IMG/VR virus record: IMGVR_UViG_3300046714_000550
Span: 1-47,563 of that record
Direction: 5' to 3' (one strand)
Origin: a virus
DNA: 47,563 bases
The notes under the pieces were generated by a model, which was given only the letters and a program-made list of their open reading frames with translations, was not told the DNA's origin and ran no database searches. Both the position numbers and the translations under genes were made by a program. Shown piece by piece: positions 24,388 to 47,563 of the stretch. The stretch's first letter is position 1. Every line of letters begins with the position of its first letter.

Positions 24388-24727
24388 CGAAACCTCCGAA
24401 GCCGCCGCCCGGCTGCAGCATCTCGCACGTGCCGCACGTGCACGTACAGTGACCCGGCGCGCCGGGGTCGCCCTTGGGGCCCTCGGGCCCGGCCTTGGTG
24501 CCGTGATCCTCGACCAGCTTCTGCACCATGTCGAGCAGGTCGAGCGAGCCCTCGATCACGCCGCGGATGTCGTGCCGATGCGACTGCAGCACCGTGGAGA
24601 GGTGCCGGTCCACGACGGCCGGCTCGCGGTCGCGCGTGGTGATGTGCGCCTGCAGCTTGGCGCGCAACTGGTCGATCCTGCGCCGCTGGCGCTCGGCCTT
24701 GTCGCGGAAGGCGCTGGGGTTAGCCAC
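24380..24727 (-). CDS. coiled-coil protein with short collagen-like run and Cys cluster (115 aa)
   Basis: Residues 1-75 are helical (AERQRRRIDQLRAKLQAHIT, IEGSLDLLDMVQKLVEDHG). Residues about 79-92 are GPEGPKGDPGAPGH, four Gly-x-y triplets of collagen type, followed by CTCTCGTC and a Gly-rich end. Collagen-like triplets are common in phage fibres and spikes, so a trimeric virion appendage is likely. The GTG start overlaps the nozzle-protein stop. Confidence 0.6.
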   Translation of the reverse strand: MANPSAFRDKAERQRRRIDQLRAKLQAHITTRDREPAVVDRHLSTVLQSHRHDIRGVIEGSLDLLDMVQKLVEDHGTKAGPEGPKGDPGAPGHCTCTCGTCEMLQPGGGFGGFGD

Positions 24728-27700
24728 CGTAGGCGCCCTGCCCGTCGATGACGTTCGCCAGGAGCTTGCCGCGCGTCATGGTCACGGGCGCGTAGGCGCC
24801 CTTCCACGCGAGCATGAACATGAAGCCGATCCCGCGTCCGCGGAAGCCGCCGACCGAGGAGCGCAGAGACTCCGGGTTGCTGACCGGCAGGTTCACGAAC
24901 AGGCTCACGGGCCAGCGCACGTTGTAGTCGAAGATGATGTCCACGGTGCCGACGGCGCTGAAGCCGGCGACGACGACCTTGGACGCGGCGCGCTGCAGGT
25001 TCATGCGCTGCAGCTCGGCGAGCTGGTCGCCGTCACCGGGCTTGATGAGCCCGCTCGTCCAGTGCCCGTCGATGGTGCCGACGCGCCAGAGGTCACCGCC
25101 AGCGCCAGGACTGGCCGGGATGTCCTTCGGCATCAGAACCACGTGCACGTTGGTGCCGTCGCTGTACGCGAAGCGGATGCGCGCGCGGAACCGCGGAGCG
25201 CCCGAGTTGAACAACTCCGTGAAGTAGACCCCGCGCAGCAGATCGTTGGCGAGTTGCTCGGTGAGCGACGCGCCGATCATTCCGGAGTACGGCGCCGGCA
25301 GCGAGGCGGTGAGCAGCGAGAGCTTGTAGTCGTCGTTGGCCACGAAGGCCGTGCCCACCGAGATGATCGAGCCGTTCGTGAGGTTGGTGACCCCGCTGAC
25401 GAGCGCGTTGCCTGCGAGGTTGGGGCAGAAGTAGTCGATGCCGTCGGCCGAGGTCAGATCGAGCCGCCACAGCCGGCTGTCGCGGATGGCCCACATCTCG
25501 ATGTTCGGGCTGTTGAAGCGCCCGATGGAGGCCACGTCGTCCCAGCGGTAGTCGGTCCAGAAGGCCCAGTCCATGAGGTCGGCGAAGAGCACCAGCGTGG
25601 GCTCGTTGGAGTCGGCGCGCGTGGGGAACAGGAACACCGCGCGCAGCGGAGCGTAATACTCCATGCGCCAGCGCTCGCGGTCGGCGGTGTCAAGCGAGAA
25701 CGGGTACACCACGCGGGTCTGGTCGGTGTACTTGGAGGGCTCGGGCGAGAGCGCGTCCGACGCCTCTTCGCCGTCGATGGGCGCGCTGACGCGCAGCACT
25801 TCCATGCCCGACATCATGAACACCGAGCTGTCGCCCGCGAAGCAGAGGCCTTTCTCGGGCACCGAGCAGATGGCCCGGTGGCCGACCGCGCCAGTCTCCA
25901 ACTGCGTCAGCTCGAAGCTGAACGGCAGGCCCTGCGTCGCCTGCTCGAGATCGAACACGTCCCACTCCCGGCAGATGCCGATGTAGACCGCGTTCTCCTT
26001 GAACACGTAGAGCCGGTCGGCGTCGCAGTACATCGCTGTGATCGGCGCGTTGCTGCTGCCGAGCTCGACGTAGTAGAAGAACGGCACGCTGGTCGGGCGG
26101 CCCTGGTAGCTCACGTAGATGCGGTGCGGGGCCCACGAGAAGCCCGCATAGAACGCGCGGCCCTGGTAGGCCGCGACCATCGTGGCCCCGTTGGGCACGC
26201 GGCTGGCGAGGCCGCCGATGTGCGGCTGCGTGATCTGGTCGTCGGTCTTGGTCCCGATCAGCAGCGTGGTCTTGCCGCCCGTCGCTGCGTCGCCGGACGA
26301 GACCGGGAACTGCCCCTCCAGGAAGAAGATCGAGCCGTTCAGCGTGGTGCGGTAGACGCGGATGTGAGAGACGCGCGGGTCGGCCGGCAGCGGGACGTTG
26401 TGCAGCCGGATGTTGTAGGACTTGGGCTGCCCGTTGTGGCCGATCGTCGGGTGACTCGGCGGCTGCGTGCCGCGCATGACCAGCACCAGGCCCGAGACCT
26501 TGGGCTCGCCGGTGAACGCGTCGTCGGGGTTGCCGGCAACCGCGAACACGCCGTAGGTCGGCACGCGCATGGGCAGGCCGTTGGCCCACGTGAAGGCGCG
26601 CCCTGGCTGGCTCTCGTTCTGCAGCTCGTCGGACCAGTACGTGACGAAGAAGCCCCAGCCGACGTACTCCGTGCCGATGCCCGGCGAGAACTGCGCCGAG
26701 GGCGGCATGGGTCCGGTGCCCCACTCCGGCGCCGGCATCTCGCCGATCCACTTCAGGCCCTGCGCCGCATCGACGCGCTCCACGCCGAGGATGGTGGGCG
26801 AGCGCGGGAACGTGGTCTCGTAGGCCACGTCGAACTCGATCGGCCACTTGAGCGTGTCGAGGTTCTCGACCGTGGCCTTCTCGGCCGGCGTGAGATCGCG
26901 CGCCCAGATTTCCGGGACTGCGTAGAGCGGGCGCTCGATGAAGGCCGTGCCGACGACCTGGCCGTCCTCGTCGATCATCACGGGCTCGGAGGACGGCGAG
27001 ACCAGCAGCGTGCGGCCAGCAACGGCAGCGCGGCCCACGAGCGAGCTGGCCGAGAAGTGCTGGCGCAGGGACTCGATGCGCTTGAGCGAGCCGTCGCCCG
27101 CGCTGTCGTAGCGCAGCACCGAGGTCTTGGTCGCCACGATCACGTCCGTGTTGCCCGAGCGGCCGACGTGCGCGAGGACGCCCAGCAGCGTCTCGGGGCT
27201 GGGCTGCACGTTGTCCGGCTCGACGTGCCCCGCGATCTTGGTCAGCAGCACGCTGGTGAAGTCGTCGCCGCCGTAGAGGCTGTCCAGTCGCCCGGTGTTG
27301 ATCTGGCGCACCGCGCGCAACCGGTCGGGGAACATCCGGCCGTTGGGCAGGCCGTTGTAGGTGAAGGGCACGTTGCGGTGGACGGGGATCGTGTCCACGC
27401 CCGCGCTGACGGAGTTGATCTGCACCGCGGCCTGCGTGCGGCCCGACGTGATCTCGATGGGGATGACGGCGTCCAGCCCCATGTGCAGGCCGCCGACCGG
27501 GTCGCTGATGAGGTGGCCGCCGTCGATGTCCGCGAGCCAGGCCGAGCGCAGCCGGCCGCGCACGAGCGCGAGCGCGTCGCGCGGCACGAGCGCCTGCCAC
27601 GCCGCCGTGTCGTTCAGCATCGAGCTCAGGAATCCCAGCGCCTCCGCGGAGCCGAGGTTCTTGCTGAACATGAACGCCCCGTCGATCGAGCCCTTGGCGC

Positions 27701-30674
27701 CGTTGCTCACCATGCCCGAGGCCACGGCCATCGAGCTCGGGTCGTTGCGCGTGTCGCCATTGGTGCCCAGCGGCCAGCAGCCGCCCGGGTAGGCGTCGGG
27801 GTCGAGCGGGCTGGGATAGACCGGGCCGCCGAGCCACCACTCGCCGCCCTGCGGCTGCAGCTTGCCGCCGAGGCAGAACACGTAGCGGCCGACGCCGAAG
27901 AGCGCGCTGGCCGCCCAGCTCATTCCGCAGTTGGTGGACTTGCGCGCCTGCCCGGTGAAGGTGGGCACGCACTCGAAGATGGCCGACGGGTCGGTCACGT
28001 CCCAGACGCGCAGCGTCTGCTTGCCCACGATCGTGTCGGTGGTGTTGGTGGGCTGGCTGATCTGGTAGCCGGCCAGGATCGCGTAGACGTGGCCCTCGAG
28101 CTGCTTGGGCGACGAGAGCGCGTTGCCGCCCGCGTCGCAGAGCGTGACGTAGGGGTAGGCGTTGTCGTCCACCGGGTCGAGCGCGGCGTTGAGGAAGTTG
28201 TAGTCGTCGTCCTGGTCGTAGGGGATGTGCTGCGTGATCGCGCCCGCGGTCTTGTCGGCCGAGCAGCGGAAGAACTTGCTGTTGCCGCGCTGCTGCTTGC
28301 TGATCGACTTGTCGGTGTCGCTCGACCCATCGAGCTGGTACTTGCTGAACGCCGAGCCGAAGCCGAAGTCGCTGCGCACCACGTAGCGGGTGACGAGGTC
28401 GTCGTTGACCGGCGTGGCCGTGGCCGCGCCGTTGAGCTGATGCGCGACGAGGTCGATGCGAGCAATCTCCAGGTCCTGCCGGCCCGGCGGCTTGAAGATC
28501 GGGCCGGAGGCCGGCGGCGCACCGGCGGGCGCACTGTTGGCCCAGATGCTGTCGGGGTGATCGAAGCCCTCGGTGAAGCCCTGCGTGAAGCCCAGCGGGT
28601 CGTCGCCGTAGGTCGGGCTCGACCAGGCCGTCGAGGTCTTGCCCTCGCGGTTGGGCGAGAACAGTTGCGCGAGCGTGTGCACCTCGCCCTGCTGCGGGAT
28701 GGCCACGGCCGGGACCGGGATGTCGCCAGTGCCGGTGCCGGCGATGCTGGCGGGCTCCGTCTCGGGCGCCGTGGTCGGCCGGTACAGCACGAGCACCGAC
28801 ATCTCCAGCGGCGGCAGCAGCAGGTCGAAGGCGGTCTTGGGCTCGCCGTTGGCGTCGAGGCTCTGCCCGCCGCGGTCGCGCCAGAGCTGCGAGGCTGCGA
28901 GCGTGAAGGCCGGCGTGCCGCCGTTGAAGCGCGCGCTGCCCGAGCTCATGCCGATGTTGCCGGGCGCGATCGTGGCGCCGTTGTTCACGGGTTCGAGCGG
29001 ATGGAAGTCCTGCCGGAAGTTGAAGCTGCCGGCGTAGCCCGTGCTCTTGAAGCCGGTCTCGGCGTTCGCGTTTCCGATGAGGTAGAGCGGCGGGAAGATG
29101 TCGCCGCTCTCGGAGTCGAGGCGCCAGATGTTCACCGTGCCGGTGTAGGGCGTGACGGTCGCATCCTGCGACGCGTCCCAGGCCGCGCCGCCGGCCTTGC
29201 GCTTGATCGTGCGCGAGTCCGGGTTCCCGAGGCCCGAGCAGCCGGCGAGCAGCACGCCGTCGTCCGGCGTGGAGCCGCCGTCCGTGGCGCCGCTGAACTT
29301 GAAGGCGCCCGCGAACATGCGCAGCTCGCTGTACGCACCGGGGAAGGCGCACGTCACGCCGGCCATGCCGCCGCGGTTGACGGACTGGCCGCAGCCGTAG
29401 CCGTAGACGCCGCGCTGGTTGCTGGCCTTGGGCAGCCCGCCGACGTAGAGCGTGCGGCCGCGCCACGCGGGCGCGTTCTTCTTGCCCGCGATCTCGAACA
29501 GGCCCGACAGCTCCTGCAGGCCCATCGTCGGCGCGGCGTTGGCGGCCGGCAGCGGCTGGCTGCTGACCTCGCCGTAGAGCGCGCTGGAGCTGTCCACGCC
29601 GATCTCCAGCCGCGAGCTGCTGGCCGCGGTGAAGTCGCGCTCGATGGCGACGGTGATCGTGTGCGGCAGCGTCGGGTCGATGGCCGCGGCGACGGCATTG
29701 GTGCCCTGAGTGCCCCAGCCGGCGAACACGAACATGCGGTTCATGCCGTTCACGTTGAAGCCGGTCGTGGCGTCGATGCCTGGGTCGCTGTACTCCCAGA
29801 GCAGCATCAGGTGCCACTGGAGCGTGAACGGCGACCAGACGTACATCACGTACAGGTCGCCCGGGTCGCAGTAGCCGTTGCCGACGTTGGTGCTCGTGGC
29901 GAAGGGCGCGGGGAAGCGCAGCGCACCGGCGCCGCTGGGCGCGCCGTGGAAGTTGGTGAAGTAGCTGTTCAGCCAGGACGGCACGCCGGCAGCAACCTGC
30001 GTCGTCCACGTTTTCTGGCTGTTGTTGAGGTGCCACATCGGGAACTCGCGCAGCGGCCCCGTGCCCAGCACGCACGCCACCTTGGGGCGCACCTTGAGCG
30101 CGTCGGCCGTGGCCACCGCGCTCGTGTTGCCCGGCACCCACGGGTACATCTTGCCGGCCGTCGTGTCGTAGCGGTTGCTCGCGGCCGGCGGCTTCCAGAG
30201 CTTGGCGTCGGCCTGCTCGAAGCCGAGCGCCGCCAGGCCGCGCTTGTAGATCGTGTAGTTTCCGAAGCCGCCGCTTGGCGCGACGACCTCGGCCGATTCG
30301 TTCGGGCGCTGGTGCAGGCCGTTGTAGTCCAGCGAGTACGGGATGTCCGTCTCGCCGATCTGGTCGAGCTCGACGCCCTTCACGCGGATCTGGAACGTGA
30401 CCTTCGTGCGGTTGGTGCCGACGGTGTCGGCCCAGAACTTCGAGAGGTTCACCGGCAGCTTGGTGGAGAGGATGCCGGTGTCGGTGCCGGCGAGCTGCAC
30501 GGAGCGGTTGAACACCGGGCTCTTCGTCGCCTTCGCGTAGCCGCGGCGCGAGTCCAGCAACTGCCGCCCGAGGTTCGCGTTGCGCGCGGAGTTGGCGCGC
30601 GTGGCCTCGAGCTGCTCCACGTCGTTGCGGGTGTTCATGCCCGCGAAGCGCTGAATGGGGATGGGGACGATCAC
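24720..30674 (-). CDS. very long tail nozzle / stabilisation-like protein (1984 aa)
   Basis: Beta-rich throughout with no membrane segment. The N-terminus begins VIVPIPIQRFAGMN, like the opening of P22 gp10/T7 gp12-type nozzle proteins. The C-terminal 700 residues have propeller-like repeats, e.g. HRIYVSYQGRPTSVPFFYYV, DADRLYVFKENAVYIG and GLCFAGDSSVFMMSGMEVLR. Between them lie about 1000 extra residues, including two lectin-like beta-sandwich candidates (near FVFAGWGTQGTN and SIDGAFMFSKNLGSAEALGF). P22 gp10 and T7 gp12 are about 470 and 790 aa, so this is a greatly expanded version, perhaps with receptor-binding inserts. GTG start at the neighbour's stop. Confidence 0.65.
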   Translation of the reverse strand: MIVPIPIQRFAGMNTRNDVEQLEATRANSARNANLGRQLLDSRRGYAKATKSPVFNRSVQLAGTDTGILSTKLPVNLSKFWADTVGTNRTKVTFQIRVKGVELDQIGETDIPYSLDYNGLHQRPNESAEVVAPSGGFGNYTIYKRGLAALGFEQADAKLWKPPAASNRYDTTAGKMYPWVPGNTSAVATADALKVRPKVACVLGTGPLREFPMWHLNNSQKTWTTQVAAGVPSWLNSYFTNFHGAPSGAGALRFPAPFATSTNVGNGYCDPGDLYVMYVWSPFTLQWHLMLLWEYSDPGIDATTGFNVNGMNRMFVFAGWGTQGTNAVAAAIDPTLPHTITVAIERDFTAASSSRLEIGVDSSSALYGEVSSQPLPAANAAPTMGLQELSGLFEIAGKKNAPAWRGRTLYVGGLPKASNQRGVYGYGCGQSVNRGGMAGVTCAFPGAYSELRMFAGAFKFSGATDGGSTPDDGVLLAGCSGLGNPDSRTIKRKAGGAAWDASQDATVTPYTGTVNIWRLDSESGDIFPPLYLIGNANAETGFKSTGYAGSFNFRQDFHPLEPVNNGATIAPGNIGMSSGSARFNGGTPAFTLAASQLWRDRGGQSLDANGEPKTAFDLLLPPLEMSVLVLYRPTTAPETEPASIAGTGTGDIPVPAVAIPQQGEVHTLAQLFSPNREGKTSTAWSSPTYGDDPLGFTQGFTEGFDHPDSIWANSAPAGAPPASGPIFKPPGRQDLEIARIDLVAHQLNGAATATPVNDDLVTRYVVRSDFGFGSAFSKYQLDGSSDTDKSISKQQRGNSKFFRCSADKTAGAITQHIPYDQDDDYNFLNAALDPVDDNAYPYVTLCDAGGNALSSPKQLEGHVYAILAGYQISQPTNTTDTIVGKQTLRVWDVTDPSAIFECVPTFTGQARKSTNCGMSWAASALFGVGRYVFCLGGKLQPQGGEWWLGGPVYPSPLDPDAYPGGCWPLGTNGDTRNDPSSMAVASGMVSNGAKGSIDGAFMFSKNLGSAEALGFLSSMLNDTAAWQALVPRDALALVRGRLRSAWLADIDGGHLISDPVGGLHMGLDAVIPIEITSGRTQAAVQINSVSAGVDTIPVHRNVPFTYNGLPNGRMFPDRLRAVRQINTGRLDSLYGGDDFTSVLLTKIAGHVEPDNVQPSPETLLGVLAHVGRSGNTDVIVATKTSVLRYDSAGDGSLKRIESLRQHFSASSLVGRAAVAGRTLLVSPSSEPVMIDEDGQVVGTAFIERPLYAVPEIWARDLTPAEKATVENLDTLKWPIEFDVAYETTFPRSPTILGVERVDAAQGLKWIGEMPAPEWGTGPMPPSAQFSPGIGTEYVGWGFFVTYWSDELQNESQPGRAFTWANGLPMRVPTYGVFAVAGNPDDAFTGEPKVSGLVLVMRGTQPPSHPTIGHNGQPKSYNIRLHNVPLPADPRVSHIRVYRTTLNGSIFFLEGQFPVSSGDAATGGKTTLLIGTKTDDQITQPHIGGLASRVPNGATMVAAYQGRAFYAGFSWAPHRIYVSYQGRPTSVPFFYYVELGSSNAPITAMYCDADRLYVFKENAVYIGICREWDVFDLEQATQGLPFSFELTQLETGAVGHRAICSVPEKGLCFAGDSSVFMMSGMEVLRVSAPIDGEEASDALSPEPSKYTDQTRVVYPFSLDTADRERWRMEYYAPLRAVFLFPTRADSNEPTLVLFADLMDWAFWTDYRWDDVASIGRFNSPNIEMWAIRDSRLWRLDLTSADGIDYFCPNLAGNALVSGVTNLTNGSIISVGTAFVANDDYKLSLLTASLPAPYSGMIGASLTEQLANDLLRGVYFTELFNSGAPRFRARIRFAYSDGTNVHVVLMPKDIPASPGAGGDLWRVGTIDGHWTSGLIKPGDGDQLAELQRMNLQRAASKVVVAGFSAVGTVDIIFDYNVRWPVSLFVNLPVSNPESLRSSVGGFRGRGIGFMFMLAWKGAYAPVTMTRGKLLANVIDGQGAYGG

Positions 30675-31447
30675 GTCCAGCCGCCCGGGACCACGCCTCC
30701 GCGCTCCTCGGCCTGCACGTCCTGCACGTAGACCGGCTCGTCGCTGATCGAGCCGCCGCTGTGCGCGCGCAGCGTGGCCTCGGCCTCCTTCATCGAGCCG
30801 TCGAGCATTCCGTAGCCCTTCTCGTTGCTGTCGGCGAGGTACATGGCGCGCAGCGCGTGCTTGCGCACGTACTCCCACGCGAACACCGGCAGCGCCGGCT
30901 CGAAGAGCGGGTTGGTCGTCTTGGTCAGCCGGGCCGGCATGACGAACACGCCCAGGCGGCCGCCCAGCGCGCTGTCGTAGTCGGGCGGGTTCTCGATGGT
31001 GATGGTGATGTCGCCCTCGGTGCCGCTCGCGCCGCCGTGGCCAGCAACGAGACGCACGTGCGCGATGGGCCAGGGCTTGGTGCTCGCCGGCGCCGAGTCG
31101 GTCATGGCCTCGATGAAGTTCTGCAGCTTGTACGGGAACCACGTCTGGCCGTCGCGGCTCAGGATGTACAGCGAGTGGAAGCGCCCGAGGTTGGCGATGC
31201 CCTGCAGCGAGAGCGATCCCGGCGCGATGTCCGCGTAGAGCGCATAGTCCTTCTTGCCGTTGACGACGTTGAAGAACCATTCCATGAACAGGTTGGGCTC
31301 GCGCTGCTGAATCAGGATCTTGGCGGTCTCCTGGATCGCGTCGCTCAGGAAGGCCGCGTACTCCTCGGTGTCGCGGACCATCTTCTGCCCGGACTTGAGC
31401 GGGCTGGCGTGGATCTTGAGGTAGGTGACGAGGTCGCCGAAGTTCAC
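30671..31447 (-). CDS. neck / tail connector protein candidate (258 aa)
   Basis: Begins NFGDLVTYLKIHAS and continues helix-rich, then beta (VRLVAGHGGASGTEGDITIT). GTG 31447 overlaps the previous stop. The order coat, 187 aa, 249 aa, 258 aa, nozzle places it in the head-to-tail connector set, comparable to P22 gp4/gp26 positions. No motif names it; the role comes from position. Confidence 0.55.
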   Translation of the reverse strand: MNFGDLVTYLKIHASPLKSGQKMVRDTEEYAAFLSDAIQETAKILIQQREPNLFMEWFFNVVNGKKDYALYADIAPGSLSLQGIANLGRFHSLYILSRDGQTWFPYKLQNFIEAMTDSAPASTKPWPIAHVRLVAGHGGASGTEGDITITIENPPDYDSALGGRLGVFVMPARLTKTTNPLFEPALPVFAWEYVRKHALRAMYLADSNEKGYGMLDGSMKEAEATLRAHSGGSISDEPVYVQDVQAEERGGVVPGGWT

Positions 31448-32831: not shown

Positions 32832-34160
32832 TCAGCTCAGGGTGAGGCTCTCGTTCTTGAAGCTCTTGCGCGGCGCGTCCGTCACCATGTTGCCCATGAT
32901 GTACAGGACGGCCTCCAGCGAGAACTTCCGGTTGGTGCTCGGCCGCAGGACCGTGCCCTGGCCGCCGTCCCACCACTTGAAGTCCGTGACCAGCGCCGTG
33001 TAGATGCTCGACAGGTCGAGCCCGTACACGGTGCCCGTCTTGCTGACGGTGCCCTGCGTGTCGATGTCCACCGGGCAGAACTTGTCGACCACGATCGGCA
33101 CGCGGCCGTCGAAGAAGAGGAAGTCGTGCGCGTCCGGGTGGTGGTCCTCGAGCTTCCCGCTGATGTAGCCGGGCATCAGCAGGTTGCTGTTCACGAGGCG
33201 CCGCGGGTTGTCCGTGGCGAGCCCGTCGTACAGGTTCCGGCGCACGATGCGGTTCATCAGCAGGCAGTTCACGTCGCCGTTGCTGTCGTCGTGGGTGTTG
33301 TCCAGGTTGGTCTGGATCATGGTCTCGTTCAGCAGCGTGCTGGTGTCCTCGATGGACTGCCACCACGTGTTGCCCGAGCGGTTGACGCCCTGGAAGAGCG
33401 CGCCCTCCAGCGGCGGGTTGGACGAGTCGATGAGGCCGCCGAGGCCCATCATCTCGAAGCCCTGCGTGGCCGTGCGGACACCCGCACGCGTCAGCACCGA
33501 GTTGTCGAGGATGTTCACGCCGACGTTCATCGACAGCACGCCCGAGCCGTCCGGGTTGCGCTGCACCGAGATGACCACGAGGCCGGCGTTGGTCAGCGCC
33601 GCGCCCGAGAGGCCGGTGCTCCAGTTGTCGAGCTTCTGGCCCTCGAAGAACGGCCGGTGGTAGCTCACCGGGACGTTGGCCGGCGAGGCCGCGGTGACGG
33701 CCGCCGTCACGCGCGCGAGCGTGCCGCTGCCGTTGCCGTAGGTCTCGCGGTCGAGGTCCTCGGCCACGTCCTGCACGAGACCGGCCATCTCGAAGTCGAT
33801 CGCGGAGAAGAAGGCCCCGCGGTCGTTCTTCGAGCTGTCGATCACGTCCTGCGCGATCTCCAGCGCGCCCATCACGAGCTTGGGCTGCACGATGCCGTTC
33901 TCGATGCCCTGCTGCCCGGCCTCGATCAGCGTCGGGATCGCGCCCGCGTTGGCCGGGGACGAGATGGCCACCGCGCCGACGCCCGTGTTCCGCGACTTGC
34001 GAACGGGGAAGATCATGCGGCGGCCGGCGAAGTCCACGATCTTGCGGCGCAGCAGCGCCCAGGTCGTGGACATGCTGTTGAGCTGGTCGATCCAGCTCGA
34101 CAGGTAGTACTCCTTCAGGAACTTGTCGTAGGAAGCGAGGGTCTGCGGGGTGCTGACCAT
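32832..34160 (-). CDS. major capsid protein, HK97-like (442 aa)
   Basis: The N-terminal arm (LASYDKFLKEYYLSSWIDQL), then KIVDFAGRRMIFPVRKSRNT and ALEIAQDVIDSSKNDRGAFF, an acidic helix with FEMAGLVQDVAEDLDRETYG, beta-rich P-domain segments and a C-terminal DFKWWDGGQGTVLRPSTNRK are consistent with phage coat proteins of the HK97 fold. The length of 442 aa fits. It follows the scaffold gene and is followed by the strong hairpin, as expected for the most abundant product. SD is weak (GGAA, 8 nt). Confidence 0.8.
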   Translation of the reverse strand: MVSTPQTLASYDKFLKEYYLSSWIDQLNSMSTTWALLRRKIVDFAGRRMIFPVRKSRNTGVGAVAISSPANAGAIPTLIEAGQQGIENGIVQPKLVMGALEIAQDVIDSSKNDRGAFFSAIDFEMAGLVQDVAEDLDRETYGNGSGTLARVTAAVTAASPANVPVSYHRPFFEGQKLDNWSTGLSGAALTNAGLVVISVQRNPDGSGVLSMNVGVNILDNSVLTRAGVRTATQGFEMMGLGGLIDSSNPPLEGALFQGVNRSGNTWWQSIEDTSTLLNETMIQTNLDNTHDDSNGDVNCLLMNRIVRRNLYDGLATDNPRRLVNSNLLMPGYISGKLEDHHPDAHDFLFFDGRVPIVVDKFCPVDIDTQGTVSKTGTVYGLDLSSIYTALVTDFKWWDGGQGTVLRPSTNRKFSLEAVLYIMGNMVTDAPRKSFKNESLTLS

Positions 34161-35252: not shown

Positions 35253-37532
35253 TCAATACCCCTCTGATCCTTCGCCGTCTCCGCCGTCGCTCATCGACTG
35301 CTTCCGGTTCGCGCCCTGACCCTGCGGGGTGTTCATGTCGGGCGACCTGTTTCCGTTGCTCATGCCCTTCCCGGGCCCGGCCTGGCCGCCGCCTGCGCCG
35401 CCCATCAGGCCTGCGGCCGCCATGCCGCCCGAGAGCATCATCGCCGCCGGGCCGACCGGGTTGGCGGGGTTCACGCCCATCATGGCCATGTGCTGCGGCT
35501 GCGCGTGCATGGCGATGTGGAGCTGGAAGGCCACGGCCACGAGCGGGTCCTTGGCGACCGCCGCGCGGTACTCGTCGCCCTTCATGAACTGGAGGTGCTC
35601 CTCGATGTGCGCCGCGTGGTCCTCGAACCACTCGACCTTCGACTGGATGCCCTGCACGAGCATGTCGTTCTCGGCCTGCGCCCAGCGGCGGTCCTGCTCC
35701 TCGCTGCGGCCGAAGTCGTCGCCGACCCCCAGCTCCATCATCTGCAGCAGCACGCGGCGGTGCGCCGGGATCTGCGGGATGTAGAGCCCGAGCTGCACCA
35801 GCGACGTGACCAGCGCCTGCATCGCGGCCTTGCTCTTCGGGAGTCCTGAGCCTGCCTGCACGCGCACGTCGATGTTGTGGCCGATGTCCGCGCCCTTGAA
35901 GGCGAAGCTCTCGATCTGCTTGTCCTTGCCGACGACGCTGACGATGCGCTCGACGTTCCAGTATTGCGCGCAGCGCAGCAGGATCTGGCGCCCGAGCTGC
36001 TGCTCGAAGGTCTCCCAGTTGAGCGTGAGCGGCCCGAGGTCGGTCGCGTCCTGCTCCTGCAGCAGCGAGATGCCGATGCCCGAGCGCACGTTGGTCGGCG
36101 TCTGCCCGCGCGAGGGGCCGTGCTGGTTGGACACGAAGTCCACCATCTGCAGCAGGTACTCGATGAGCTGCGCCACGAACGCCGGCAGGTCCGGCATGGC
36201 CATGATCTCGGGGCGCCCGCCGCCGAGGTTGTTGTAGTAGACCTTCTCGCCGGGCTCGCTGGTGAGCTTGTTCGCGCCGATCGCGCACGAGTGCGGAATC
36301 AGGATCTTCGGCCGCGCCATGAGGCGCTGGTTCTCGATCACGTTGCTGGTGACGCGGTTGATCTCGCGCTGGATCGGCGCGAGGTTGCTGACCACGCTGA
36401 TCGGCCAGAAGCGGCCGCCCTCGATCGAGCGCGCCTGCACGAAGGGATGCCAGTCGCGGTCGAGCTCGGCGCCCGGCGCGTTGAGGATGTCGATGGGCTG
36501 CAGCTCGCAGAAGCCCTGGCATTGAGTGAGCAGCCCGCCCTTGGGCCACATCTTGCCGGCGAAGTAGTTGCCCGGCTTGAGCCACATCTCGTTCACGCGC
36601 GCGCCCTCGGTGGGCGTACCCGGCGCGAGCCCGGCCTGCAGCGAGCCGGCGGCGGACAGGTTGTTCATCTGCGCTTCGATCGTGCCGTACTCGTCGTCGC
36701 GCTCGTTGGTGACGTACTGGCCCCACGTCGGAAACTTCCCGCGGACCCAGTCGAGGCTGCGGCGCCGCGTGTGGATGAGCCACGTGATCTCGCGGAAGGT
36801 GCGCGCCTGCGGGTCCACGAGGATCTGCTCGGGGTAGCACATCTCGACTTCGACGCGGCCCGGCTGGTAGGTCAGCGGCTTGCCCGTGTCCGCGTTGACC
36901 ATCGGCGTGCCGGCGTTGGGCGTGCCCTCGGGCCACGTGAGCGGCTGGCCGCTCTCGTCGTCCACGGCTTCGAGCTGCGGGCCGGCGCCCGGGTTCCAGA
37001 GCACCTTGGCGAAGCAGCTCGCCTTGACCAGCGACACGATGCAGATTTGCAGGCGCAGCGCCGGGAGGTCCAGGTCCTGGTTGACGTAGTCGAGGATGCG
37101 CTCGGCCGCGCGCGCGGCGTTCTTGTCGGAGTTCTCGTTGCTCGCGGGCACGACCACGGCCTGCGGCCGCGTCTTGAGGATCATCGAGGCCATCGTCTGC
37201 ACCACCGGCAGCACGACGTTGATGACGATGCGCACGCGGTACTTCGGGACCGCGGTTTCCTGGATCAGTCGCCGCAGCGTGTCGGACCACGTCGCGTACT
37301 GGTTGCCCACGTAGAGGGCGTGCAGGATCGCCCACTCCCGGTGCTGCGGATAGAAGATGGTCGTGGCCATCATCTGGCACTGGCGCACCGCGCCCGCGAG
37401 CTGCGCCATGAGCGGCGGGATGTCCACCGGCGGCTTGGCCGGCATGTCCTCGGCGAGCTGGCCGCGGCCGAAGCTGCGCGTGCCCATCATGGGCGCGGCG
37501 GTGCTCGGCGGGAGCCGGCCCATCACGGGCAC
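35253..37532 (-). CDS. portal protein (759 aa)
   Basis: The dodecameric ring at the capsid vertex through which DNA passes. Supporting elements: LYVGNQYATWS near the N-terminus, VLPVVQTMASMILKTRPQA, many Trp/Pro-rich wing and stem segments (WLIHTRRRSLDWVRGKFPTW), a long helix at about residues 430-470 (FVAQLIEYLLQMVDFVSNQH) and helical crown segments toward the C-terminus, then a Met/Gly-rich tail. The length is close to P22-type portals (about 725 aa). Position between terminase and scaffold agrees. Start GTG 37532 or ATG 37523. Confidence 0.8.
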   Translation of the reverse strand: MPVMGRLPPSTAAPMMGTRSFGRGQLAEDMPAKPPVDIPPLMAQLAGAVRQCQMMATTIFYPQHREWAILHALYVGNQYATWSDTLRRLIQETAVPKYRVRIVINVVLPVVQTMASMILKTRPQAVVVPASNENSDKNAARAAERILDYVNQDLDLPALRLQICIVSLVKASCFAKVLWNPGAGPQLEAVDDESGQPLTWPEGTPNAGTPMVNADTGKPLTYQPGRVEVEMCYPEQILVDPQARTFREITWLIHTRRRSLDWVRGKFPTWGQYVTNERDDEYGTIEAQMNNLSAAGSLQAGLAPGTPTEGARVNEMWLKPGNYFAGKMWPKGGLLTQCQGFCELQPIDILNAPGAELDRDWHPFVQARSIEGGRFWPISVVSNLAPIQREINRVTSNVIENQRLMARPKILIPHSCAIGANKLTSEPGEKVYYNNLGGGRPEIMAMPDLPAFVAQLIEYLLQMVDFVSNQHGPSRGQTPTNVRSGIGISLLQEQDATDLGPLTLNWETFEQQLGRQILLRCAQYWNVERIVSVVGKDKQIESFAFKGADIGHNIDVRVQAGSGLPKSKAAMQALVTSLVQLGLYIPQIPAHRRVLLQMMELGVGDDFGRSEEQDRRWAQAENDMLVQGIQSKVEWFEDHAAHIEEHLQFMKGDEYRAAVAKDPLVAVAFQLHIAMHAQPQHMAMMGVNPANPVGPAAMMLSGGMAAAGLMGGAGGGQAGPGKGMSNGNRSPDMNTPQGQGANRKQSMSDGGDGEGSEGY

Positions 37533-37724: not shown

Positions 37725-38203
37725 GAGGTTCCTCCGCGGATGTTCTTGAGGGCCATGTCCACGAGATGCTGCGCGCCCGTGGGCAGCACGTCCACGCCGT
37801 TGTCGGCGCGCCGCAGGCGTTCGAGCTCGGCCTCGCGCTCGTCGTCCATCACGTCGGCCGGCGCGTCCATGTCCATCGGCGGCGCGACGCCGGGCTGCGT
37901 CGAGCGCTGCAGCAGCGCCGAGAAGAGCGCGCTGTTCTGGCTGCGCACGTCCTCCATCAACCCGAGCATGACCTTGTCGCGCGCGGTCTGATCGGAGCGG
38001 AGCTGCTCGGCGTGCGCCATGTGGTACTGCGTGCTGGCTTCGAGGTCGGTGCGGAAGTCAGCGCGCTCGCGCGCCAGCTCGTGCAGCACGAACTCGAGAT
38101 CCGGTGAAGCTCGGACTGGGCCTGTCCGCCGCGCCGCGAGCGCACCCACCACGGCTGCCGAGAGTCCCGCGATCAGCAGACAGACCCAGTCCAGAGGATT
38201 CAT
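37721..38203 (-). CDS. membrane-anchored coiled-coil protein (160 aa)
   Basis: A transmembrane segment at residues 4-24 (LDWVCLLIAGLSAAVVGALA), then a helical stretch (LEFVLHELARERADFRTDLE, RSDQTARDKVMLGLMEDVRS) and a Pro/Asp-rich middle. Inner-membrane spanins have this plan, but it sits among head genes; it may instead be a virion protein. The ATG overlaps the upstream stop. Confidence 0.6.
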   Translation of the reverse strand: MNPLDWVCLLIAGLSAAVVGALAARRTGPVRASPDLEFVLHELARERADFRTDLEASTQYHMAHAEQLRSDQTARDKVMLGLMEDVRSQNSALFSALLQRSTQPGVAPPMDMDAPADVMDDEREAELERLRRADNGVDVLPTGAQHLVDMALKNIRGGTS

Positions 38204-38568
38204 CCGGCGCGCTCCACGAGGATGTCCCAGCCGCCGACGCTGCTGGGGTCCGTGGCGATCACGGTCAGGCCCTGGCGGAAGAGCATCCCGCGCAGGCGCT
38301 CGAACCACGCATAGCCCTGGCCAGCGGCGGCGCCGCCGTTCAGCGAGCCGTTCGTGCCGGACGAGACCGTGTACTTCGCGGCCGAGCCGCCGCCTGTGGC
38401 CGCGGCATCGAACATCTGCAGGATGGCGAAGGTCGAGATCGTGCCCTTGAAGCGGGCCGCGACGCCCCAGATGCGGCAGGGGAACGCCGCCTTCTGGGTC
38501 TCGGCGATCGTGCCGGCCGCGATCGAGACCACCGTGAGGTAGCGAGGATTGGGAAGAGAGCCGCTCAT
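38200..38568 (-). CDS. small beta-rich virion protein, paralogue 3 of the AAxGQGY family (122 aa)
   Basis: Contains GAAAGQGYAWFERLRGMLF followed by RQGLTVIAT, matching similar lines in the 118-aa protein and in the N-terminus of the 619-aa protein. A domain of this size next to portal and terminase fits a capsid decoration or head-fibre protein. Very good SD (GGGAGG, 4 nt). Confidence 0.6.
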   Translation of the reverse strand: MSGSLPNPRYLTVVSIAAGTIAETQKAAFPCRIWGVAARFKGTISTFAILQMFDAAATGGGSAAKYTVSSGTNGSLNGGAAAGQGYAWFERLRGMLFRQGLTVIATDPSSVGGWDILVERAG

Positions 38569-38581
38569 GTTGCCTCCCTTC

Positions 38582-38938
38582 CTACAACTGCTCGATCAGC
38601 GCGGAGACCGCACCGTCGAGGTTGGTGCCGGGCGGGGTTCCGTTCACGGTGGTCAGCGCGGCCGTGAGGCCCGCGTTGAACTGCAGGCCGTAGACCTCGA
38701 TCGGCACGACGTAGCCCTGGCCCGCGGCGGCCGCGAGGCCCGAGGTGAACGTGCCAAGCAGCCGGCCGCTGCCGTCGGCGACCGCTCCGTCCCGGAAGGT
38801 GACGGCGATTTGGCCGGCATTCTTGCCGGCGAACTGGATGACCACGTCCCAGATCCGGCCGCCGCCGGTCTGCAGCACGACCTCCGTGGTGATCGACTGC
38901 AGGACCTGCTTGAGATTTCTTGCATTGGGCCAGCCCAT
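38582..38938 (-). CDS. small beta-rich virion protein, paralogue 2 of the AAxGQGY family (118 aa)
   Basis: Contains LAAAAGQGYVVPIEVYGLQF followed by NAGLTAALT; shares this line with the 122-aa protein and the first 115 residues of the 619-aa protein. Likely a decoration-type virion domain present in three adjacent copies. SD AAGGA lies close to ATG 38938. Confidence 0.6.
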   Translation of the reverse strand: MGWPNARNLKQVLQSITTEVVLQTGGGRIWDVVIQFAGKNAGQIAVTFRDGAVADGSGRLLGTFTSGLAAAAGQGYVVPIEVYGLQFNAGLTAALTTVNGTPPGTNLDGAVSALIEQL

Positions 38939-38962: not shown

Positions 38963-40822
38963 TCAGGTGATCGAAGCGACGATCGCGCCGGCTCCGGCCG
39001 GCTGGATGCGAATGCTGTTTGCGCCGTCGAATCCGACGGTCACTGTACCCACGTTTGCGCCGGTTGCTCCAACGGGCACGTGGGGCAGGTTCTTCACGAC
39101 GATGTCCCAGTTGGTCGAGGTCGTCACGTGCAGCGGCGTTCCGCCGCCGAAGTTGAAGCCCGAGAGCTTGGTCTTGCTGGCGTCGATCGTGATGCGGTTG
39201 ACCCGCACTTCGCTGGTGAACACCCAACCCTCTGAGCCCGGCGTCGTCACGATCGAGCACCGGAAACGGGTCATGTCGTTGGCCGCGGCCTTGAGCACGG
39301 TGCAGTAGCTGCTCGTGCTGTCGCGGTGCGTCACGTACTCGAAGGTCTGCGGCAGGCGGTCCAGCGGCGGCGTCTGGTCGAGGAACTGGAAGTAGCGGCC
39401 GACGTCGAGGATCGCCCACGTGTGCGCGCCGAGGCCGCCGAAGATACCCACGTCCACGAAGGTCGGCTGGAAGCCGATGGCGCCCGTGGGGTTCACGGTC
39501 TGGTAGAGCGTCTGCAGCTTGGCGGTCAGCGGCGGGATGATGATGAGCGCGTCGTCGTCGCCGAAGAAGATCAGCGTGGGCGTCCACATGCCGGACGCGG
39601 CGAGCGAGCGGTCGAAGTCGATCGTGGCCCCGGGGATGTCCGCGGCCGACGGCGCCGGGATCAGCACCGGCGAGAGCTGCGTCATCGGCCCGGTCTCAGC
39701 GTAGGTCGCCGGGTCCAGCGCGAGGATCGCGCTCGCGCGCCACGCGAGGCCGATGGCCGAGATGTTGTCGCCGCCCGGCCACGGGCCGCCCATCTGGTCG
39801 AGGCGCTGCTGCTGGCTGCGCCACTGGCTGCTGGTCGCGGTGCCTGGGTCCGGGTCGCAGAGCGTGTTGTTCGGATCGCCGGTGTGCAGCGGGATCGACT
39901 GGCCGAGGTTGGTGTTGTTGTGCTGCTTGCGCTGCCAGACGAGCATCTCCCAGTCCGGCGCGACGGGGCAGATGGTGCGCGCCATCAGGCCCGCGGGATC
40001 GCGGTGCGTGGCCGCGAAGCGCGAGACCTGCTGGCCGCCGAGCGAGAAGCCGACGAGGTTGATGTCGTCGGGGTTCGCGTTGAGCTTGGCAAGGCACCAG
40101 GTCAGGACGGCCTCGAGGTTGTCCACGCTGTTGTCGTTGGGCCACGTGTCGTTGAGCATCGAGGTCGGCGACACGTACAGGAAGCAACGGCGACCGCACT
40201 CCTCGTCAATCGTGGTCTCGACAGCGTTCGTGATCGGATCGTTCTTGAGCTGGTGGTGCGCGAGGATCAGGCGCGTCTTGCCCTTGCTCGTCCAGCCCGA
40301 CGGGAACTGCAGGTAGAAGTTCTCGGTGTCGGCGACTCCTGACCAGACCGCGGCGTTGAGCGTCTGCGTCGGCACGACTCCGAACTTCGCCAGTCCGTTG
40401 AACGGGTGCGGCGTGCTCTTGCCCAGCAACTGGCGCACGCGGTTGAGCGTCAGCGCGAGCAGCACCATCAGGTTGCTCGTGCGCTGCACTTCTTCGAGCA
40501 GGATCGTCCCGGTCAGGCCAGCGTCGGGCACGATCACGAGACCGTCGGGGTACTCCTTCCCGTACATCTCGATGACCTGCATGTGGCCCTGGCCGGTCGC
40601 GGCCGCGGCTTGCACGGGCAGCGTGTCCGTGTCGATGCCGGAGCCGACGGGCCGCAGGTGGATCACGCCGCCGGCGAAGTTGCCGGGCACGTCGATCATC
40701 AGGCGCTTCACGTGCACGCGCGCGCCCGAGATGAACGTGCCCGCAGCCGCGCCCGTCACGATCAGGAACTGGTTGGCGTCGGGGAACGCCACTTCGCGCA
40801 GGAACGGGAGCGGTGCGGACAC
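38963..40822 (-). CDS. virion-region protein with alpha/beta-hydrolase domain (619 aa)
   Basis: Residues 1-115 are paralogue 1 of the AAxGQGY domain (QAAAATGQGHMQVIEMYGKE, then GLVIVPDAG). From about 140 to 490 there is an alpha/beta hydrolase: a strand with LILAHH (185-190), the nucleophile elbow NLVGFSLGGQQV (S260 in GFSLG), the acid in LIFFGDDDALIIIPP (D422-D424) and the histidine in GGLGAHTWA (H467), in the correct order. The C-terminal 130 residues are beta-rich. An esterase or depolymerase carried on the virion is the simplest reading; the substrate is unknown. GTG start with CGGAGC 6 nt upstream. Confidence 0.75.
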   Translation of the reverse strand: MSAPLPFLREVAFPDANQFLIVTGAAAGTFISGARVHVKRLMIDVPGNFAGGVIHLRPVGSGIDTDTLPVQAAAATGQGHMQVIEMYGKEYPDGLVIVPDAGLTGTILLEEVQRTSNLMVLLALTLNRVRQLLGKSTPHPFNGLAKFGVVPTQTLNAAVWSGVADTENFYLQFPSGWTSKGKTRLILAHHQLKNDPITNAVETTIDEECGRRCFLYVSPTSMLNDTWPNDNSVDNLEAVLTWCLAKLNANPDDINLVGFSLGGQQVSRFAATHRDPAGLMARTICPVAPDWEMLVWQRKQHNNTNLGQSIPLHTGDPNNTLCDPDPGTATSSQWRSQQQRLDQMGGPWPGGDNISAIGLAWRASAILALDPATYAETGPMTQLSPVLIPAPSAADIPGATIDFDRSLAASGMWTPTLIFFGDDDALIIIPPLTAKLQTLYQTVNPTGAIGFQPTFVDVGIFGGLGAHTWAILDVGRYFQFLDQTPPLDRLPQTFEYVTHRDSTSSYCTVLKAAANDMTRFRCSIVTTPGSEGWVFTSEVRVNRITIDASKTKLSGFNFGGGTPLHVTTSTNWDIVVKNLPHVPVGATGANVGTVTVGFDGANSIRIQPAGAGAIVASIT

Positions 40823-40837
40823 GTCGAGCTCCGTCGA

Positions 40838-41008
40838 TCAGGACCCCGTCGAGCCCTCGGAGCTGCGGATGTGGCCCTGGCCCTTGCTGCCCGGGAAGCT
40901 CGTGCTGCTGTTGCTGGCGGGCCCGGTGCCGGCGATCTTGTCCGTGCCCTTGTCGCCGAACTTCACCGACTCCTTGCTGCCGCCCACGTCTGCGTCCATG
41001 CCGGTCAT
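40838..41008 (-). CDS. small hydrophilic protein (56 aa)
   Basis: Not recognised. Gly/Ser/Lys-rich, likely disordered (SKESVKFGDKGTDKIAGTGP, SNSSTSFPGSKGQGHIRSSE). Supported by SD GAGGAG 8 nt before ATG 41008 and by filling the gap between terminase and the hydrolase gene. A minor virion protein by position. Confidence 0.55.
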   Translation of the reverse strand: MTGMDADVGGSKESVKFGDKGTDKIAGTGPASNSSTSFPGSKGQGHIRSSEGSTGS

Positions 41009-41020
41009 GCTCGTGTCTCC

Positions 41021-42652
41021 TCAGTCGAAGTCGTCGTCCCAGGCATCGAGGGAGGCGGCCTCTAGGTGATCTTGGATCTGGTGGCCGATGCCTTGTGCGT
41101 CGTCCATGAGAACGTCCCCGATCCTCGTCGGCAAGGACGCAAGCGCGCCCGGCGGCGACCCGACCTGATAACAGCCCTGCAAGGCCAGCGCGAGGGCCAT
41201 GACCCGGTCGTCGTTTCCGGCCACCGCGCCGAGGCCGTGGCTGCTGCGAGGGGCGTCCTCGGTGAGATAGCCGAACAGCCGCAGCTCCTCGACGGTGTCG
41301 CGGTCGTAGAGCTTGAGGATGCGCTCGCCGTCGGCGCCGATGTCGCGCAGCACGTCCTTGAGCTGGTTGCAGGCGAGGCCCTTGGTGCGCGCGTCGGTGT
41401 ACCAGCCGATGTTGGCCATGAGGTGGCCCTCTTCGCTCAACTTGTCCTGCTGCTGGCGCCGGTAGATGTTCGGGTAGCCGAGGCGCTCCAGCACGGCCAG
41501 CGTGCCCATGCCGTGCTGGTTGATCTCGGGCACGATCAGGCCCTTGTTGTAATACGTCGCCAGCGCGACCAGCTCCTCGGCGAAGCGGCCCGGGTCCATG
41601 TGCCCGTGCCAGACGGCGACCTGCTTGAACTCCGTGGCGTCGATGACCTGCGCGCAGGAGTAGTCGCCCAGCGCGGCGCCGCCGGAGACATCGCCGCCGA
41701 CTGCGTAGAAGCGGTCGCGCCGCGGTGCCGCGAAGATCTTGAGCCGGCCCTCGGGCTCGGAGAGCGTCTTGACCCTGGTGCCCGACCAGTAGAGCCGGCC
41801 CTGCCAGATGCGGTTCTTGGTCTCGACGCTCTCGCAGCGCGGGAGCTGCGCCTCGACGTCCTCGCGCGCGAAGAACGGCGAGCCGATCCGCAGGATGAAG
41901 TCGCCGTAGACGCGGATGCGCAGCTCGTCGCCGGTGTAGCGCTTCTTGGCGAGTTCGATCTCCTTGACCGGGATGTAGGGGTTGTCCACGAGGCCCATGG
42001 TGATGAGCTCGAGGAAGTCCTCGTCGGCCTTGGTGTCGAAGAGCAGCTTGTGCAGCCAGCGCAGGCCCTGCAGCGCGGTGAAGCCCATGATGATCTGGCC
42101 ACCGCAGTCGATCGTGCGCGCGTAGCACTCGTTGTAGATGTCCTCGGGGTGCTCCTCGTCCAGCACGATGACCTCGCGCGACGTGCCCTGGTACTTGCTG
42201 CGCCCGGAGTCCGCGGACTTGAAGCCGATCGTGCTGCCATCCCGCTCGTCGCGCCACAGCCGATCGGCGGCGCGCCACGTGATGAGCTTCTTGGCGATGG
42301 CGTCGGGCGGGATGAAGCCGCGGACCTTCTCCTCGGACACGTCGCGCGAGACGTTGGCATCGAGCGCGCTGACCCAGACGTTGATGGGCCGCTTGTAGGT
42401 GATGAGCCGCCCGAACTCGCGCGTCAGCACGGGCGACCAGCCCATGAAGCGCTCGGTGGCGATGCGGTGGATCACGTCGCTCTTGCCGGTGCGGTTGGCG
42501 CCCAGCACGACCACGTGCCGCTTCTGCGATTTCATCGCGCGGAGCTGCTTGGGGTGCGGCTTCCACGAGTAGAACGGATGCGTGCTCTGCATCCGCTCGA
42601 AGAGCTCGGCCGAGATGCCGCGGAGTTGCTGGGCGGCCAGCTCGTCGCTCAC
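41021..42652 (-). CDS. terL: terminase large subunit (543 aa)
   Basis: ATP-driven DNA packaging motor with a headful or site nuclease. Walker A: GANRTGKS at 51-58. Walker B: VIVLDEE at 161-167 (the following His is unusual). Coupling motif near MGFTALQG (189-196). RNase H-like nuclease: D321 in AVGGDVSGG, E376 in LIVPEINQHG and an acid in GNDDRVMALALAL toward the C-terminus. Length is normal. The GTG at 42652 overlaps the upstream stop; the preceding in-frame stretch lacks coding character. Confidence 0.92.
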   Translation of the reverse strand: MSDELAAQQLRGISAELFERMQSTHPFYSWKPHPKQLRAMKSQKRHVVVLGANRTGKSDVIHRIATERFMGWSPVLTREFGRLITYKRPINVWVSALDANVSRDVSEEKVRGFIPPDAIAKKLITWRAADRLWRDERDGSTIGFKSADSGRSKYQGTSREVIVLDEEHPEDIYNECYARTIDCGGQIIMGFTALQGLRWLHKLLFDTKADEDFLELITMGLVDNPYIPVKEIELAKKRYTGDELRIRVYGDFILRIGSPFFAREDVEAQLPRCESVETKNRIWQGRLYWSGTRVKTLSEPEGRLKIFAAPRRDRFYAVGGDVSGGAALGDYSCAQVIDATEFKQVAVWHGHMDPGRFAEELVALATYYNKGLIVPEINQHGMGTLAVLERLGYPNIYRRQQQDKLSEEGHLMANIGWYTDARTKGLACNQLKDVLRDIGADGERILKLYDRDTVEELRLFGYLTEDAPRSSHGLGAVAGNDDRVMALALALQGCYQVGSPPGALASLPTRIGDVLMDDAQGIGHQIQDHLEAASLDAWDDDFD

Positions 42653-42876
42653 GCGTGCTGCGCTTCGCGCGCCTCGCGCTGGGCCCGGTACAGGTCGAAG
42701 GTCTCGTAGCAGGCGGGGCACAGGTCGCGCTTGTCGCGGCTCTTGCGCAGCGCCTTCTTGCGCTTCACCTTGCCGCGCTCGAAGAGCTTGAGCTGCCCGA
42801 ACATCTCCGGGCACCTGGCCTCGTGCTTCCCGCACTGGCCCCGGCACTGACAGCGGTCGTCTCGATCATTGGTCAT
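42649..42876 (-). CDS. small zinc-binding protein next to terminase (75 aa)
   Basis: Cysteine-rich start (CQCRGQCGKHEARC), a basic middle (KVKRKKALRKSRDKRD) and LCPACYETFD. The spacing recalls the zinc knuckles of phage HNH nucleases, but the HNH histidines are absent, so cutting is unlikely. HNH-type proteins often sit beside terminase genes and help packaging. ATG 42876 has GGAG 5 nt upstream; GTG 42882 would overlap the previous stop. Confidence 0.6.
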   Translation of the reverse strand: MTNDRDDRCQCRGQCGKHEARCPEMFGQLKLFERGKVKRKKALRKSRDKRDLCPACYETFDLYRAQREAREAQHA

Positions 42877-46977: not shown

Positions 46978-47531
46978 TGGTCTGGGGCAAGCCAGGTCCG
47001 TGCCCGCGCTGCAACGGGAAGCACCAGAAGCGCATCACGCCCGGCAGCGGCTCGGTGCAGCCGTACTGCACGGAATGCCAGAAGGCCTACGCCGCGAACT
47101 ACCGCAGCCTGCACAGCGACGCGATCAAGACCCAGAAGCGCGACCGCCGCAAGCTGGAGCGCGAGACGGCTCCGCTGACGCCGCAGAAGATGCGCCGGCG
47201 CGAGAGGCTGGCCGAGCGCGAGCGCGCGGCCGCCGACCGCAACCACTTCAAGCGCTCGATGCCGAAGCCCGAGGACAACACGTTCATGCCGGTGGCGGAG
47301 ATCCCGAAGGATCGTCGCCAGGCGGCGGGCAAGCGTCCGCAGAACCTGCGCGGCGACCTCGTGCTACCGATGACGCCCGAGCTGGTCTCGCTGCTGGACG
47401 AGCTGCTGCAGTTGCAGCACTTCGGTCTGACGCACGAGGCCGTGGCGCTCACGATGCTGCGGCAGAACTGCGAGCGCGAGATGCTCTTCTGGCACGATTG
47501 CGTGAAGCCCGTGGTGGCGACGCTGAAGTGA
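46977..47531 (+). CDS. zinc-ribbon protein crossing the circle junction (184 aa)
   Basis: CPRC at 9-12 and CTEC at 31-34 form a zinc ribbon of the kind that opens phage HNH proteins (VQPYCTECQKAYAANYRSLH), but no HNH catalytic histidines follow. Residues 45-110 are a basic, Arg/Glu-rich helix; the C-terminus is a helical domain (TPELVSLLDELLQLQHFGLT, EAVALTMLRQNCEREMLFWH) that may dimerise. The ATG overlaps the previous stop. The end of the gene is duplicated at 1-95 by the terminal repeat. Confidence 0.65.
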   Translation: MVWGKPGPCPRCNGKHQKRITPGSGSVQPYCTECQKAYAANYRSLHSDAIKTQKRDRRKLERETAPLTPQKMRRRERLAERERAAADRNHFKRSMPKPEDNTFMPVAEIPKDRRQAAGKRPQNLRGDLVLPMTPELVSLLDELLQLQHFGLTHEAVALTMLRQNCEREMLFWHDCVKPVVATLK

Positions 47532-47563
47532 ACAGCCTGCTGGATCGCCGAGGTCCGCGTCGT
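47437..47563. repeat. right copy of the 127-bp end repeat
   Basis: Identical to bases 1-127. It contains the last 30 codons of the 184-aa gene and the first 12 codons of the next + strand gene (GTG at 47528), which continues at the left end of the window. Confidence 0.95.
47528..47563 (+). CDS. N-terminal fragment (second copy) of the 71-aa protein
   Basis: The first 12 codons of the gene at 92-307, repeated because of the end overlap and cut by the window edge. Not a separate gene. Confidence 0.85.
   Translation, partial: MNSLLDRRGPRR

Follow-up and report, generated by a model that had tools for sequence, protein, structure and literature searches.

Virion-borne alpha/beta-hydrolases are not new and have already been described in print. 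In phage ArV2, gp24 was detected by mass spectrometry in CsCl-purified virions (11 peptides, 38% coverage) and was reported as a tail fibre protein (PMC4205034). This protein (locus L019, 4155-5642) carries an alpha/beta-hydrolase domain, and the word "esterase" is absent from the main text of that paper. The tailspikes of Moo19 and B2 hydrolyse 4-nitrophenyl acetate (PMC11654681). A review of virion-associated enzymes lists deacetylases on tailspikes, a part of phi11 gp44 with lipase or esterase character and, as predictions, virion lipases in phages of Cellulophaga and Pseudomonas (PMC5380687). The available part of a review of decoration proteins names no enzyme among them (PMC7602432), and the accessible portions of the literature on decoration proteins with an esterase, and on PHB depolymerases with phage virions, yielded no capsid-borne esterase. 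The preliminary description of the locus considered here had called a capsid-borne esterase unusual, which, for virion-borne esterases in general, overstates the case in view of ArV2 gp24, the activity of the Moo19 and B2 tailspikes, and the GDSL esterases of phages Jasmine and Shocker.

The locus lies in a window of 47,563 nucleotides, the whole stretch of viral DNA that we analysed, which is probably a complete phage genome because an exact 127-bp direct terminal repeat is found at both ends (1-127 and 47437-47563). Its 619-aa ORF looks like a real gene, because third-position GC reaches 0.94 (the GC content of the record is 70%) and a GGAG precedes the GTG start (Table 1). The gene belongs to a minus-strand run that reads terminase, a possible 56-aa ORF, the 619-aa gene, the 118- and 122-aa proteins, smaller ORFs, portal, a 341-aa protein that by position sits in the scaffold's place, and head protein. 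The placement in a virion region proposed from the DNA is thus borne out: the gene lies in a structural run between terminase and portal, on one strand, and adjoins the terminase gene with only the possible 56-aa ORF (40838-41008) between them. The translation likewise confirms S260 in G258-FSLG, D422-D424 and H467 at the residues first named for them, and contains a further C-terminal stretch after the hydrolase domain, as had been described.

Table 1. Features of the 619-aa gene and of its surroundings, with positions in the window.
Feature	Position	Strand	Basis
Gene, 619 aa, GTG start	38963..40822	-	ORF translation
GGAG, Shine-Dalgarno-like, six bases before GTG	40829..40832	-	read from sequence
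N-terminal domain, residues 1-111, proposed virion anchor	40490..40822	-	similarity to 118-aa protein
Linker, residues 112-149, with a hydrophobic, probably helical stretch	40376..40489	-	read from sequence only
Alpha/beta-hydrolase domain, residues 150-490	39353..40375	-	Pfam, profiles, hhalign, AF2 model
D225-T-W227-P-N229, matches D-x-W-G-N motif of phage hydrolases	40136..40150	-	alignments A4, A8
GFSLG nucleophile elbow, S260 codon 40043-40045	40037..40051	-	serine aligned in 120/120 MAFFT trials
D422-D423-D424, candidate acid (D424 in alignment A4)	39551..39559	-	A4; not in A8 or 120 MAFFT trials
H467, candidate catalytic histidine	39422..39424	-	A4, A8; 10/120 MAFFT trials
C-terminal stretch, residues 491-619	38966..39352	-	no family match above cut-off
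118-aa protein, relative of N-terminal domain	38582..38938	-	pairwise comparison
122-aa protein, relative of 118-aa protein	38200..38568	-	pairwise comparison
Terminase large subunit	41021..42847	-	phrog_2, E 1.6e-25
P22-like portal protein	35253..37532	-	PF16510, E 1.9e-20
Major head protein	32832..34160	-	phrog_14242, E 1.6e-41

The closest relatives that we found for the hydrolase domain are LucasX gp176, Seahorse gp33 and gp34, Faja gp32, Mellie gp31, CheeseTouch gp32, ArV2 gp24 and Derg gp21, which are, as judged by sequence, esterases encoded in phage structural regions. Nine of the ten records that hold phage hydrolases of the matched type are Arthrobacter or Gordonia phages. ArV2 gp24 has the same kind of hydrolase domain behind an N-terminal region and is encoded in a structural gene run. 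It differs in that ArV2 is a siphovirus, the hydrolase is C-terminal, the N-terminal region has no visible relation to the one described here, and the gene follows the minor tail genes. LucasX gp176, from a Xanthomonas phage, and Seahorse gp33, from an Arthrobacter phage, share the hydrolase, the D-x-W-G-N motif and a serine elbow, which in those proteins ends in SMGG; their hydrolase is C-terminal on a long protein, the gene orders differ from that of this phage, and a much shorter stretch separates serine from acid. LucasX gp176 (locus L011, 8213-10702; 829 aa, annotated hypothetical) joins DUF7941 at the N terminus to a C-terminal alpha/beta-hydrolase. Gordonia phage Derg gp21 and its Jabberwocky counterpart also lie within structural genes, but as free-standing proteins of 241 aa that lack both an N-terminal and a C-terminal domain.

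Two further systems resemble this one in setting. Jasmine gp19, from a podophage, and Shocker gp30 come from phages with a related portal and are esterases with extensions, encoded shortly downstream of the capsid gene (two genes after it in Jasmine and seven in Shocker). These enzymes are of the GDSL (SGNH) type, unlike the present protein, and comparison of Jasmine gp19 with the hydrolase profile detected no similarity; they are a different type of enzyme, perhaps doing the same job. Among the Pfam matches of the 619-aa protein there is no Lipase_GDSL model, which the Jasmine, Shocker and Galaxy proteins do match. Moo19 and B2 are comparable as podophage particles bearing an appendage with measured esterase activity; theirs are tailspikes of Schitoviridae, and the likeness is drawn from the published description. 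Across the relatives found, we did not see combined the features that mark this protein, namely an N-terminal domain whose relative is a free-standing neighbour, a site between terminase and portal, a longer stretch from serine to acid, and a C-terminal stretch.

The order of the catalytic motifs proves little by itself. Among 5000 shuffles of the hydrolase domain, 6.5% show G-x-S-x-G, D and H in this order, as do 4 of the 45 called ORFs of the window, the 619-aa ORF included; it is the profile match that exceeds chance. Pfam Abhydrolase_1 matched the isolated domain with an E value of 8e-5 and 22.9 bits, below the curated cut-off of 25.8. Under a profile built from seven hydrolase domains of phages, with the query left out, the domain scored 19.1 bits, and the highest of 1000 shuffles reached 5.0. 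With a profile of 13 hydrolase domains, again without the query, the domain scored 34.4 bits; 1135 of 2000 shuffles were reported, the best at 6.4 bits, and 35 of the other 44 called proteins, the best at 0.3 bits. One member of this profile comes from a Blastococcus genome and the others from phages or viral contigs. Three of the 13 (LucasX, Derg and locus L039) had first come to attention through weak matches to the query, and the other members were gathered from there. With these three removed, the ten-member profile still gave a clear score of 18.2 bits (best of 2000 shuffles, 4.9), yet about half of that of the full profile. We left our estimates unchanged by this bias, since the Pfam match is independent of the profile.

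Comparison of the whole protein with the 13-member family by hhalign gave a probability of 96.4 and an E value of 1.3e-9 over residues 166-289, and the controls, the Jasmine GDSL esterase and the phage's own portal, reached probabilities of 0.15 and 0.19. The homology spans approximately residues 164-289, the first half of the hydrolase, and the match to the profile of the family that includes ArV2 gp24, Seahorse gp33 and LucasX gp176 is confined to that half of the domain. The matched parts comprise the strand before HHQ, the D-x-W-x-N motif, the GFSLG elbow and the next strand, which ends in CPV. N229 is invariant in alignment A4, and HHQ stands in what we take to be the place of the oxyanion-hole HG. 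Homology to alpha/beta-hydrolases is very probable on this evidence; the assignment made in the preliminary description is supported by Pfam, profiles and hhalign, and catalytic activity is a prediction. Searches of NCBIfam and of PDB sequences with the whole protein returned no match at E<=1, and the best phmmer match of the hydrolase domain in the PDB was a feruloyl esterase (E 0.11).

The predicted fold agrees with the sequence evidence at low confidence. AlphaFold2 (AF2) without relatives produced nothing usable (mean pLDDT 32.5). When the domain was modeled from an alignment of nine rows, including eight relatives at 13-19% identity, an alpha/beta/alpha order was obtained with a pTM of 0.54 and a mean pLDDT of 50. 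Averaged in blocks of ten, pLDDT runs from 46 to 81 over the first 140 model residues and from 29 to 37 over residues 201-310; D424 and H467 fall in model residues 194-322, where it is below 50. Foldseek retrieved 664 PDB chains at E<=0.001 with LpqC first, and TM-scores normalized by query length were 0.29-0.44 in the best 50 of the 664. A VIA-align superposition on a ferulic acid esterase gave a Z score of 14.8 and an rmsd of 3.3 over 202 residues, and in BFVD the first two matches were Jabberwocky's protein and a Seahorse esterase. The model thus appears to have an alpha/beta-hydrolase arrangement, provided that relatives are supplied; the part that carries D424 and H467 is weakly modeled. 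This fold is not independent evidence, because the AF2 alignment already contained hydrolases.

Sequence alignment supports the members of the putative triad to different degrees. S260 aligned with the serine of the relatives in every one of 120 MAFFT trials, between which cuts and subsets were varied, and its role as nucleophile is well supported. H467 aligned with all of the relatives' histidines in 10 of the trials and failed to do so in 110, and the acid aligned with an acid of any relative in none of the 120. In alignment A4 (8 sequences), S260, D424 and H467 all occupy invariant columns; in A8, serine and histidine are in register and the acid is out of register, and when each relative was split in two in an attempt to match up the acid region, the acid stayed unaligned. 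The roles of H467 and D424 therefore rest mainly on position and are less certain than that of S260, because the query is longer after the elbow: its serine and acid are 164 residues apart, as against 86 in LucasX (S107 to D193). At approximately 78 residues longer, this spacing is not quite the canonical one that had been claimed.

The relation of the N-terminal domain to its 118-aa neighbour emerges from direct comparison. Residues 1-115 align to the 118-aa protein with a score of 67 (z 7.1), and the 118- and 122-aa proteins align to each other with a z of 8.2; in both cases, 0 of 500 shuffles scored as high. Compared directly, the N-terminal domain and the 122-aa protein match only weakly (score 41, z 2.6, 14 of 500 shuffles as high). 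When 193 segments of the window were ranked against the N-terminal domain, the 118-aa protein came top (67), and two portal segments (48 and 44) exceeded the 122-aa protein (41), so the link to the latter runs via the 118-aa protein. Three consecutive genes thus probably encode a small domain, one of them joined to an enzyme, and in the 619-aa protein this domain may serve as a virion anchor, a role for which this one pairwise similarity is the basis. The N-terminal domain has no PHROG match, and its sole Pfam match, MotA_N (E 0.14), falls short of the cut-off. The preliminary description had called it decoration-like: it is indeed a separate domain with a free-standing relative next door, but no decoration family was matched in Pfam or PHROG. 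A pattern scan with a three-row alignment of the N-terminal domain and the 118- and 122-aa proteins matched 221 stretches, of which none was confirmed. The PDB matches of the corresponding three-protein profile to Ika8 (E 1.4e-5) and Ika4 (E 0.0042), which we take to be designed repeat proteins, were discounted; for Ika8, no single stretch passes alone.

For the 122-aa protein, the sole PHROG match below 0.01 is phrog_28054 (E 0.002), a family of unknown function that we take, by length and position, to be that of Galaxy gp21, a GDSL protein annotated as tail spike or esterase; against Galaxy gp21 directly, the E value is 10. These matches overlap the start of a GDSL domain; we treated them as chance, though a link to the tail is possible. 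At the other end of the 619-aa protein, the C-terminal stretch looks beta-rich, gives a z of 2.2 against the N-terminal domain (17 of 500 shuffles as high) and has no Pfam or PHROG family above cut-off.

The phage is probably of the short-tailed type, as its P22-like portal suggests. The portal matched 16 phage records, 11 of them from phages of actinobacteria, with Arthrobacter phage Jasmine (26.9% over 79%, E 6e-38) and Microbacterium phage Shocker among the matches; Jasmine is reported to have podovirus morphology (PMC5513430). The terminase matched 368 records, of which 224 are Vibrio and Pseudomonas phages, and so points elsewhere than the portal.

The whole protein has no relative in 50,697 phage records at E<=0.01, nor in IMG/VR by peptide patterns. 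With the hydrolase domain alone, the best direct tblastn match in phages was Derg gp21 (E 0.3), and a match to one IMG/VR contig, from 49 candidate stretches, was confirmed at E 8e-6; plasmids yielded no match at E<=1, and patterns retrieved no relative in genome contigs. A phmmer search of 396 genomes of one phylum with the domain returned eight matches at E<=0.01, the best at 3.3e-4. One of them (locus L035) appears to be a distant alpha/beta-hydrolase because the matched stretch spans a G-G-S-Y-G elbow; the other seven, whose matched stretch holds no G-x-S-x-G, were taken as chance. The portal matched two of the same 396 genomes, and on these two contigs the portal and capsid proteins were the only relatives among ORFs of at least 90 aa, one contig being 5283 bases long and ending in the capsid gene. 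Pattern scans of IMG/VR with the head protein and the portal found no relatives. A terminase search found six contigs at 33-38% identity, in whose records the 619-aa protein has no match at E<=10.

We consider it fairly probable that the gene encodes a serine esterase that is anchored on the virion and attacks esters of the host surface during adsorption. Taken separately, presence of the protein in virions is likely, and a host-surface ester as substrate is somewhat better than an even chance. The N-terminal domain would dock the protein on the particle, and a serine alpha/beta-hydrolase with S260 as nucleophile, H467 as base and D424 as the likely acid would take ester-linked groups (acetyl or other acyl) off a host surface glycan or lipid; removal of these esters could expose a receptor or loosen the grip. 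As to its place on the particle, we lean toward a tail appendage over the capsid surface, because ArV2 gp24, the sole relative detected in virions, is a tail protein. The esterases on a virion determine what surface modifications the phage can tolerate or requires. If the 118-aa relative is a tail protein, the enzyme would be one more modular receptor-processing enzyme; if it is a head protein, the enzyme would be displayed on the capsid.

Display on the capsid would make decoration proteins of the N-terminal domain and its two free-standing relatives, with one of the three carrying the esterase on the head surface. Both free-standing proteins (118 and 122 aa) do directly adjoin the gene, before the portal, and decoration proteins can be so small (B2 gp45 is reported at 99 aa; PMC11654681). 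However, neither the N-terminal domain nor its relatives match a decoration family in Pfam or PHROG, the phrog_28054 match of the 122-aa protein would, if that family is taken for that of Galaxy gp21, lead to a tail spike or esterase annotation, and the review cited above, in its available part, mentions no decoration enzyme. We therefore regard capsid display as unlikely, and slightly less likely still the related scenario in which a decoration protein acquired an esterase domain and two plain copies and one enzyme-bearing copy coat the head. It would be of real interest if true: the phage would carry many capsid esterases with which, independently of its tail, it would digest surrounding surface layers that contain esters. 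An enzyme that stays out of the virion and acts late, for instance by changing the host surface against superinfection or by using host stores such as polyester, is improbable in our judgement. It draws on the titling of LpqC, the top PDB fold match, as a PHB depolymerase and on the feruloyl esterase match of the domain, and it is opposed by the relation of the attached domain to a neighbour in the structural run and by the location of the relatives in structural regions, one of them (ArV2 gp24) proven in virions. Stored polyester, which the preliminary description had offered as a substrate, finds no specific support: Pfam Esterase_PHB (PF10503) matches nothing in this genome at E<=0.001, in a search that was positive in 2 of 14 control genomes, and LpqC is one of many alpha/beta-hydrolases in the fold search. 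Least probable of all to us is a role in lysis, as a LysB-like mycolate esterase that acts when infection ends. The nucleophile region weakly matches phrog_102 (endolysin), presumably LysB, at E 0.019 to 0.04 (0.019 on the domain), and the lysin B of CheeseTouch lies four genes from its related esterase; yet the gene here sits between terminase and portal with no lysis gene recognised beside it, its N-terminal domain is related to a small neighbour, and its profile match is to esterases of structural regions.

Several other genes of the window, all on the minus strand, were noted. A 2972-aa ORF (12674-21592), which takes up nearly a fifth of the genome, is possibly an internal virion or ejection protein; it has no PHROG match at E<=0.01, and its sole Pfam match, HR1_TOCA (E 3.4e-4), is sub-threshold. 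A 2186-aa ORF (24720-31280) has weak matches to virion structural and internal virion protein families; its first ~200 residues look out-of-frame, and the true start may lie further in. The 108-aa protein at 24061-24387 matches the tail fibre families phrog_11338 (E 1.2e-5) and phrog_693 and has no clear relation to the 118- and 122-aa proteins. Finally, a PD-(D/E)XK nuclease is encoded at 10009-11043, with matches to PF12705 (E 4.3e-12) and to the exonuclease family phrog_69.
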